In this document: piece after piece, positions 28,409-29,921 of the stretch
Numbering within the stretch: position 1 is the stretch's first letter
How the letters are laid out: each line of letters starts with the position of its first letter
NCBI GenBank assembly: GCA_017503645.1
Contig: JAFVSR010000034.1
Coordinates: 1 to 56,531 of the forward strand
Source of the DNA: Bacteroidaceae bacterium
GTDB lineage: Bacteria > Bacteroidota > Bacteroidia > Bacteroidales > Bacteroidaceae
Direction of reading: 5' to 3'
DNA: 56,531 bases
Notes under the pieces: generated by a model
What the model was told of the DNA's origin: nothing
Seen by the model: only the letters and a program-made list of their open reading frames with translations
The model's database searches: none
Translations under genes and position numbers: made by a program

Positions 28409-28444
28409 AAAATGGAGATAACCGCGGTTATCTCCATTTTTTTT
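28409..28444 (+). terminator. Rho-independent terminator of rplU-rpmA
   Basis: Perfect 16-bp stem (AAAATGGAGATAACCG and its complement, 28409-28440) with almost no loop, followed by T residues up to 28444, where the inverted-repeat element begins. Confidence 0.9.
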
Positions 28445-28469
28445 AGGCAATAATATAGCAGTTGACCCA
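28445..28469 (+). repeat. Left terminal inverted repeat
   Basis: 25 bases, the exact reverse complement of 29860-29884. Just inside it, GTTGAC recurs in AGGGTTGACTGCTC (28477-28490), a possible sub-terminal binding site. Confidence 0.9.
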
Positions 28470-28508
28470 CAATTTAAGGGTTGACTGCTCTTTTTATCTA
28501 GTAATCAA

Positions 28509-29291
28509 TCAAAATTCATCGGAAATTGATGTGTACTCTTTTCTAAGACCTTTTGCTTCAAGGTGTATGCTACCACGTTCTGTTCTCATCAAGTTGGCAT
28601 GTAAGAAATTATCATAATCAAGTGGTATGTTTATTATAACAGAACCTTTGGTTTGTAATTCATTTGCAGCAGCCCTCCATTTATTGACATTATTCCAACC
28701 TTCTTTGTTGTTATTGGTAAGGTTTATCTGAAAATCTTCCTTTAATATCTTATTGACAGACTCCTTGATGATTTGATGTAAATCACTTTCAGTTAGTCTT
28801 ATTACTTGCTTTTTCATATCCTTTTTTGTTTTATATTCTTTATTTTCATTAATTGGATTTCTAGAAATACGAACTTGTGGCGGACTACATTTATTTGTTG
28901 TATCTTTATATTGTCCTTCATTTATGTCCTTAATTGATTGTATTATTAACTTTTCATATTGAGGTGTTAGAAATTGTGGATTACCTTGAAGATTATACAC
29001 ATATTCATTAACCTTGATTGGTTTTTTACGTAACCTTTTTAACGTAAGACATTCCACTTCATTAAAAGTAACTTCGGTATCTTCAAATACAATACTCACA
29101 ATTGGTAATCCTTTCCTTTTAGGATTCTTTTCTAATATATCATCTCATACATATAGTCTTGTACAGTGATTAGACAATCTCACTAATGTGTCACCTATCT
29201 GAGTGTAATATGAATCCTTTTCTTCCGTTGCTGGTACTCTGAATTGTACATACTGCAAAACTTTCTTAATTATCTCTCTTGAAAATGCCAT
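28509..29291 (-). pseudogene. Unknown element-borne protein interrupted by an in-frame TGA
   Basis: From the ATG at 29291 the frame encodes 48 residues (MAFSREIIKKVLQYVQF ... HCTRLYV), then TGA at 29147-29145, then continues open for 211 codons to a TGA at 28511-28509. The part after the stop can restart at GTG 29099 (196 residues) or ATG 28817 (102 residues). The last fragment begins MKKQVIRLTESDLHQIIKES, a basic helical motif I associate with small proteins of gut Bacteroidota phages and islands. Reading the TGA as Trp gives a smooth protein of about 260 residues, so a recent TGG-to-TGA change is the simplest explanation. Function unknown. Confidence 0.6.
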
Positions 29292-29313
29292 ATATTTCAT
29301 TTATTTATTATAA

Positions 29314-29344
29314 ATATTTCTATTTTTGCAAAAAATAGAAATAT
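29314..29344. promoter_or_regulatory. Perfect palindrome spanning promoter and start codon of the divergent element genes
   Basis: Two 14-base arms (ATATTTCTATTTTT and its complement) flank GCA. The plus-strand -7 box TATTTTTG (29321-29328) lies within it, and the right arm ends in the AT of the ATG at 29343. The minus strand carries a similar TATTTTTTG facing the gene that starts at 29291. This is a good candidate for a shared operator/promoter controlling both genes. Confidence 0.6.
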
Positions 29345-29828
29345 GGAAATAAAACGTGATAATTTTAGATTTAATAGGATTATTAATCCAAGCAATGTCA
29401 TTGAAGAATCAACATTGTTTTATATGGAACAAAACGATATAGACGATGATGATATTGTTTGTGGTGAACAAATTGAGGGTGGTGATAATATAATTGTACT
29501 TCAAAATATAACAGAACCGTACCAAGGTGAACGTTATTGTTATTTAAAAACTAATACTATTATTGGTGGTGATGGACACACAAAATTGATTACTATAAAC
29601 AAAATTATCGTTGATAAGAATTTAATTAATCAGAGCTTATTTTTTAATATTTTCAAAATCTTATTACAACAAGAAGAAAACGAATATAATAATAGAATAA
29701 TGTTAACAACAAGGTTTAACGAATGCTTCAAAAACAGAGTGGTTGATATTGCCAATTCAATTTCAAATCGCATTTGTGAAATGTACTCCTTTACATCTGA
29801 TTTGAATCCAAGTTTTATTATACCATAA
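29343..29828 (+). CDS. Element-borne protein of unknown function
   Basis: 161 residues, rich in Asn, Ile and acidic residues, with no tryptophan, signal peptide or membrane segment. I do not recognise a domain. Notable segments are the acidic NDIDDDDIVCGEQIEGGDN, a strand-rich middle and a helical C-terminal part (NLINQSLFFNIFKILLQQEE). It is transcribed divergently from the broken minus-strand gene, and the leader would be only about 8 bases from the -7 box in the palindrome. It is the only intact gene of the element. Confidence 0.65.
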   Translation: MEIKRDNFRFNRIINPSNVIEESTLFYMEQNDIDDDDIVCGEQIEGGDNIIVLQNITEPYQGERYCYLKTNTIIGGDGHTKLITINKIIVDKNLINQSLFFNIFKILLQQEENEYNNRIMLTTRFNECFKNRVVDIANSISNRICEMYSFTSDLNPSFIIP

Positions 29829-29859
29829 ATACAACTATTTCTGACTATAGTTTTTATTT

Positions 29860-29884
29860 TGGGTCAACTGCTATATTATTGCCT
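29860..29884 (-). repeat. Right terminal inverted repeat
   Basis: 25 bases, the exact reverse complement of 28445-28469, followed by a TTTTTTA tract and then the serS promoter region. Confidence 0.9.
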
Positions 29885-29921
29885 TTTTTTATTTTGTGAC
29901 GGCTAATTTTTTCTTCATAAC

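Follow-up and report, generated by a model that had tools for sequence, protein, structure and literature searches.

The window examined here, a stretch of 56,531 nucleotides from a Bacteroidaceae genome (G000), contains a short block of DNA with inverted ends and two divergent genes, lying between the genes named rpmA and serS in the first-pass annotation. The question it raises is what kind of element this is and how it came to be there. The reading favoured here, with a probability of roughly 0.85, is a mobile insertion cassette, derived by deletion from an IS1595-family transposon with passenger genes whose close relatives are found mostly in phage contigs.

The block was at first described as 1.44 kb long with perfect 25-bp ends. 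The segment at 28445-28469 is the exact reverse complement of 29860-29884, and complementarity is still 97% when they are widened to 29 nt, but the twenty-fifth base belongs to the target duplication. The element proper is 28446-29883, a total of 1438 bp with 24-bp inverted ends, and the sequence GGCAAT marks its start at 28446. It is inserted in a T-tract after rpmA, of which 8 bp are duplicated. Duplications of 8 bp are typical of the IS1595 family. The interior is AT-rich, as had been noticed from the outset, with a GC content of 0.25-0.30 against about 0.45-0.54 in the flanks. The element has the following features.

28438..28445, no strand: left copy of the target duplication, TTTTTTTA (8 bp), an exact match to 29884-29891; one copy is present in the empty site of G013
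28446..28469, plus strand: left terminal inverted repeat, 24 bp, with the same ends in G013 and G020 and altered ends in viral contigs
28457..28489, plus strand: hairpin followed by a T-run within the left end, resembling a terminator (putative role), with a fold of -18.1 kcal/mol
28505..28511, no strand: deletion scar; the sibling copy is about 94 nt longer here, including the last 19 codons of an IS1595 transposase
28509..29300, minus strand: left gene (cargo 1), disrupted, a phage gene X fused to a labelled gene; stop at codon 52, 13 end codons lost
28737..28817, minus strand: the label MKKQVIRLTESDLHQIIKESVNKILKE within cargo 1, from comparison of labels
29314..29344, no strand: palindrome between the divergent genes, with perfect 14-nt arms, presumed promoter region
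29343..29828, plus strand: right gene (cargo 2), 161 aa, intact, identical to that of the sibling, of no known family
29860..29883, minus strand: right terminal inverted repeat, 24 bp, the reverse complement of the left end
29884..29891, no strand: right copy of the target duplication, TTTTTTTA (8 bp), an exact match to 28438-28445

Evidence that the element has moved is provided by a BLAST comparison with G000 and 60 relatives. Some match is found in 23 of these 61 genomes; outside the genus, nothing but the palindrome between the genes or a short stretch rich in A and T is matched. The exact cargo combination is confined to G000 and G013, and G013 holds one full sibling at a different genomic position. 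Between rpmA and serS, G013 has an empty site, in which the flanks are directly joined and the 8-bp repeat is present once. This site was called from the aligned junction by eye and by BLAST; joining the flanks by script gave no exact string match to the congener at any offset, because the congener is one T shorter downstream. The sibling and the window copy are 99.5% identical across 1383 nt; for the genes on either side of the site, identity between G013 and G000 is 96.6% and 97.8%. For the sibling's own site, the match in G000 consists of 190 nt of the left flank, distant from the junction, at 92% identity.

The ends themselves are widespread. Of the 44 genomes of the genus, 18 contain a 17-bp end piece, with at most one mismatch allowed; since the reversed pattern used as a control is found in none of the 44, the end sequence is not a chance occurrence. 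Five pairs of ends that were fetched from sister genomes are spaced only 55-248 bp apart and are MITEs, four of them flanked by exact 8-bp repeats. They share ends and 8-bp duplications with the window element and, unlike it, contain no genes. Altogether, exact 8-bp repeats flank 11 of the 16 same-ended elements checked (the window copy counted among them), and the targets are AT-rich 8-bp sites.

Some further observations concern the insertion sites. Another lone end-like sequence, with one mismatch in 17, lies in the window genome at G000:C23:1204-1220. The sibling (L025:919-3496, G013:C53) sits inside a CRISPR spacer, which it splits, with the 8-bp duplication TTGATTTT. The array has 47-nt repeats and 29-30-nt spacers; three of its repeats are interrupted midway by one and the same insert, about 70 nt long (L025:924-1040, 2611-2727, 2758-2874), giving units of 117 nt. 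The split spacer has no exact match in the viral contigs.

Within 28446-29883 no transposase was found among the open frames or with Pfam. Nor was a transposase of the clade described below found in G000, a genome that is 86% complete, so that movement is demonstrated for the past only. Full relatives can be seen in G020, where there are two elements, 2.47 kb and 2.73 kb long; one of them (C69) has the exact ends of the window element. Each encodes a 325-aa transposase with a DDE_Tnp_IS1595 domain and a zinc ribbon; in G020, PF12762 is matched at 3.6e-45 and, for one of the two, the NCBIfam model transpos_IS1595 at 4.5e-57. Between the ends, the order is transposase (plus strand), a leftward gene (minus strand) containing a short conserved peptide, here called the label, and at least one divergent rightward gene (plus strand).

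A trace of the transposase survives in the sibling. Between its left end and its left gene lies an open stretch, MSIGLVRRWTDIKQGLMAA followed by a stop, which corresponds to the last 19 transposase codons, with 67 of 67 nt matching the last part of the transposase gene in G020. The first 64 nt of the sibling are 92% identical to the G020 left end. Because the transposase tail and a G020-like left end are both retained, the sibling can be recognized as an internal-deletion derivative. The window copy matches six more bases of the G020 left end than the sibling does, and it lacks the transposase tail and, at the end of the left gene, 13 codons. The window copy is read here as the product of its own deletion, in a parent shared with the sibling that still had the transposase.

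Thus the ends are those of a transposase-bearing insertion sequence, exactly so in G020 C69 and by way of the remnant in the sibling, and passengers are carried without a transposase, one of the two being broken. This is the arrangement of a mobile insertion cassette; compared with an autonomous IS1595 element, the window copy has the 8-bp duplication and lacks the transposase. The original proposal of a transposase-less mobile unit with clean ends, movable in trans, agrees with the empty site, the sibling, the duplications, the MITEs and the transposase-bearing relatives. Searching with the ends recovered both same-ended copies and relatives with a transposase; the boundaries recur elsewhere, and the ends are not part of a longer locus shared by all relatives. 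Mobility and origin of the element are well supported.

Both of the divergent genes first reported are present, but the left one is not a single open frame, as it contains an in-frame TGA at codon 52. Right of the scar, the window copy differs from the sibling by five substitutions, all within the left gene; four of the five change the protein, and one is the stop. Because of the stop, the lost 3' end and the protein-changing substitutions, the left gene of the window is taken to be decaying, and cargo 1 is probably inert in this copy. The idea that the cargo, rather than a transposase, is what is kept is not borne out in this copy, where a premature stop and the loss of 13 terminal residues in the left gene leave the right gene as the one intact passenger. 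An alternative code in which TGA is read through is not favoured; the sibling gene is open under table 11, and the end of the window gene is also lost.

The two genes had been said to match no family. Nothing significant was indeed found in Pfam, PHROGs, NCBIfam or PADLOC, the best sub-significant matches being 0.0041 in PHROGs (a family of unknown function) and 0.11 in Pfam. Viral contigs do contain relatives of the left gene; no match to the right gene was found there or in GenBank phages. Among solved structures, nothing significant was found for a profile of gene X (best E 0.47) or for the right gene.

The origin of the left gene can be seen from gene X (169 aa), which lies in the 387-kb viral contig L155 and is 72% identical to residues 4-155 of the sibling's left protein. 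In L155, X stands alone, overlaps a separate labelled gene by four bases and has no matching inverted ends around it. A second stand-alone X (148 aa, 73%) occurs in a 211-kb viral contig, next to a gene with what was judged by eye to be a diverged label. By these comparisons, the left gene of the window element is an in-frame fusion of X and a labelled gene. An N-terminal part resembling X is probably also present in L106 (28.6% across 91 non-label residues, E 0.004) and, less surely, in L110; a second type of N-terminal part is common to L028, L108 and L109. When seven right-hand genes were compared, the sole mutual match was that of L028 with L108. Beside X in L155, at L155:2238-3929, a gene resembling a homing endonuclease (3.7e-106) lies between a tail sheath gene and the X gene.

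Relatives of the G020 transposase are likewise found in viral contigs. There are nine encoded relatives in this collection, six of which show 69-82% identity over at least 319 residues. The contigs concerned span 16-335 kb, and the samples behind the viral contigs are, as we take from the sample numbers, mostly rumen. "Viral" is the designation of the collection, which phage genes back for some contigs. For instance, in L106 a tail tube gene (1.2e-31) lies about 1.4 kb from the element, and in L155 a tail sheath gene (6.8e-45) lies near the X gene.

Three of the six elements (L106, L108 and L109) contain a transposase (plus strand), a labelled gene (minus strand) and a divergent third gene (plus strand) between like inverted ends. 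L107 and L110 contain a transposase and a labelled gene, with no third gene visible, and L111 contains two rightward genes and no label inside. The exact end of the window element has no match in the viral contigs, the phage copies being off by a few bases.

Relatives without a transposase also occur there. One in L138 is 609 bp long, has an 8-bp repeat and encodes a 170-aa labelled protein; one in L108 is 679 bp long and encodes a 155-aa labelled protein, with no exact repeat. A third (L099:4060-5806, 1747 bp) has more diverged ends, an 8-bp repeat and a single long gene. The 457-aa protein of L099 has, by eye, a repeated leucine-rich look and is perhaps a surface or fibre protein.

A transposase tree was built from 13 rows, with G333_L160 included and G065_L040, G009_L044, G011_L041 and the partial L113 and L114 left out. 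Both G020 transposases are nested in a clade with the six viral ones (support 100/99), the inner fork with L106-L108 having support of 98/98. Close full copies occur in one of the 44 genomes of the genus, compared with nine viral loci. Across the order, one of 393 genomes (G333) has a match beyond E 1e-80, at 58% identity, and the 50,697 GenBank phage records contain three transposase matches, all at 40% identity or less. Members of the close transposase clade are found chiefly in contigs of very large phages with contractile tails; chromosomes of one gut Bacteroidaceae genus contain the clade as well. Tree and cargo together suggest a direction from phage to host.

The label has a consensus of 22 residues in the left gene, IRLTESDL..I[IV]KESVN.[IV]L.E. 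A degenerate pattern, [IV]IRLTESDL..I[IV].ESV, matches 50 stretches in the viral contigs and four in genome contigs of 84,980 species, two of these four being the G020 and G013 elements. A shorter pattern gives 84 matches across 14 viral records, with 1-13 in each and none for the reversed control; the records were preselected for holding a label or a transposase, and one of them counts one label twice, at both ends. In 295 genomes of the order, the only label found was that of the window itself, in a search where so short a query may lose sensitivity. In GenBank phages, tblastn gave no label at E up to 1. Two of the viral loci, L053 and L069, are the same 401,138-bp contig, in which the same start of a labelled gene is found at both ends, as would be the case with repeated ends.

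Among 94 distinct labels, part of which come from related genomes and are not independent, positions 1-16 are partly set by the search pattern, and positions 19-22 are free of it. L or I occupies position 20 in 90 of 93 labels, and E occupies position 22, likewise in 90 of 93. The residue between them varies freely, and conservation stops after position 22. When the label is removed, 86 labelled proteins fall into 47 groups. The label is N-terminal in 80 of the 94 cases and internal in 14, including most of the long cargo genes of transposons; it lies in the middle of the protein in six transposon genes (L025, L028, L106, L108, L109 and L110). A box with the sequence ATATTTAT precedes 43 of the 80 N-terminal labels, where shuffling predicts 2.4, and none of the 14 internal ones. 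Two native phage proteins show the same order of domain and label as transposon cargo: one has a Dps-like domain followed by the label (L087:3292-3831), and the other a DUF3008 domain followed by the label (L065:4079-4594).

The phage records also contain a prohead protease of the T4 type (Peptidase_S77), which is above cut-off in 8 of the 14 viral records, several of the records being fragments. In T4, head-core genes are kept beside the prohead protease. Among the eight genomes with a clear protease, a labelled gene lies within 1.5 kb of it in six, directly adjoining in four and about 1 kb off in two, and is not near it in the other two. The chance of such adjacency is 2.2e-6 if the eight genomes are independent and about 0.04 if they are counted as four lineages, a grouping made by judgement. 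When 14 different labelled proteins were scanned against protein families, none matched a head protein.

According to the consulted part of PMC9026906, the cleavage motif of the T4 protease gp21 is L/I-x-E. The label ends in this motif, as T4-type capsid targeting sequences do. We consider it somewhat better than an even chance that the label acts as a propeptide for capsid targeting, which the T4-type prohead protease of the phage would cleave behind [L/I]-x-E, and that the passenger is head-packed; this reading comes from sequence comparison. If the label is a capsid address, the passenger would be a protein packed into the phage head.

Three other explanations have to be set against these readings. 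The divergent genes had suggested a toxin-antitoxin or regulator-effector module, that is, a novel pair of cargo genes with mutual regulation from the shared palindrome. The perfect 14-nt arms between the genes are in keeping with this, as is the right gene, which is intact and identical in both copies. However, no toxin, antitoxin or defence family is matched (Pfam, NCBIfam, PADLOC), and in the window copy the left gene is broken and the right one persists. The partner of the labelled gene also varies from element to element, with only L028 and L108 agreeing among seven; in relatives, the transposase is accompanied by a labelled gene of phage type and often by a divergent third gene, which varies. 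A toxin-antitoxin or regulator-effector module is very improbable, and membership of a known toxin-antitoxin or defence family was rejected after nothing significant was found in Pfam, PHROGs, NCBIfam and PADLOC. The spread of ends and MITEs through many chromosomes of the genus (18/44), which makes residence in hosts not rare, could instead point to an ordinary chromosomal IS1595 group of Bacteroidaceae that rarely enters phages, with a label of unknown use and an incidental tie to phages. Such a group is unlikely, given that close full copies are found in one of 44 genomes of the genus and one of 393 of the order (at 58%) against nine viral loci, that the bacterial transposases of G020 are nested within viral ones and that the cargo is phage-type.

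For the label, the balance is closer. It may be some other signal shared by phage proteins, such as a helix that docks onto a common partner or serves a compartment. Internal labels in 14 of 94 cases, including the native phage proteins of L087 and L065, speak for such a signal, and the association with the protease is weak once lineages are collapsed. On the other side are the sharp end of conservation after [L/I]-x-E, the T4 gp21 motif, at positions outside the search pattern, and the labelled gene directly beside the protease in four of eight genomes and about 1 kb away in two more. A signal of another kind is a serious contender, given somewhat less than an even chance, and the capsid-targeting propeptide is kept as the working interpretation of the label.

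A mechanism can be proposed on this basis. In full elements, the IS1595 transposase would act on the 24-bp ends and drive movement into AT-rich 8-bp targets. The window element would have been moved by a cognate IS1595 transposase from a full copy outside the sequenced part of G000, and the source of the transposase may have been an infecting phage. The terminator-like hairpin in the left end may shield the interior from outside transcription. In phages, the elements would carry labelled genes, probably of the head-packed type. From time to time a copy would enter a host chromosome and, after losing the transposase, persist there as a cassette or MITE that becomes mobile again only if a transposase returns, for example with a phage. 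The window element would be such a stranded copy.

Passenger-bearing transporter IS and transposase-less mobile insertion cassettes are already known in the IS1595 family, from the part of PMC3129680 consulted. The window element resembles them in having IS ends and passengers and no transposase in the cassette, with full relatives that combine a transposase and passengers. It differs from those described in that part of PMC3129680 in that the full relatives are mostly in contigs of huge phages and the passengers bear a phage label. Likewise, the label resembles the T4 capsid targeting sequences, as presented in the consulted sections of PMC9026906, in being a short peptide common to diverse proteins, with an L/I-x-E end. 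A prohead protease of the T4 type is above cut-off in 8 of the 14 viral records, some of them fragmentary. The label is unlike the T4 sequences in its 22 residues, compared with 10-19 in T4, in its many more protein groups, in being carried by transposons and in a cleavage that is so far predicted. The label is also sometimes internal, whereas the sequences of T4 are N-terminal.

In listings of the open-access literature, no paper was found that contains the label string, and no description was found of a phage-based IS1595 clade or of capsid targeting in Bacteroides jumbo phages. The main text of a survey of jumbo phages, the part consulted of PMC13037316, has no mention of a transposase or insertion sequence. 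The element itself is an IS derivative of a known kind, and it is the phage-based clade and the label that lead to apparently undescribed ground.

A wider picture may tentatively be drawn, less probable than the origin of the element itself. Huge gut phages would load dozens of unrelated proteins into their heads by means of one label, and IS1595 transposons would have specialized in carrying and reshuffling the genes of such injected proteins, jumping between phages and the chromosomes of Bacteroidales, which would hold a stock of capsid-addressed proteins. If the label is a capsid address, it provides a direct list of proteins that these uncultured huge viruses of the gut may be injecting into host cells. 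A lineage of transposons connecting huge phages with host chromosomes is a concrete route for gene exchange between them.
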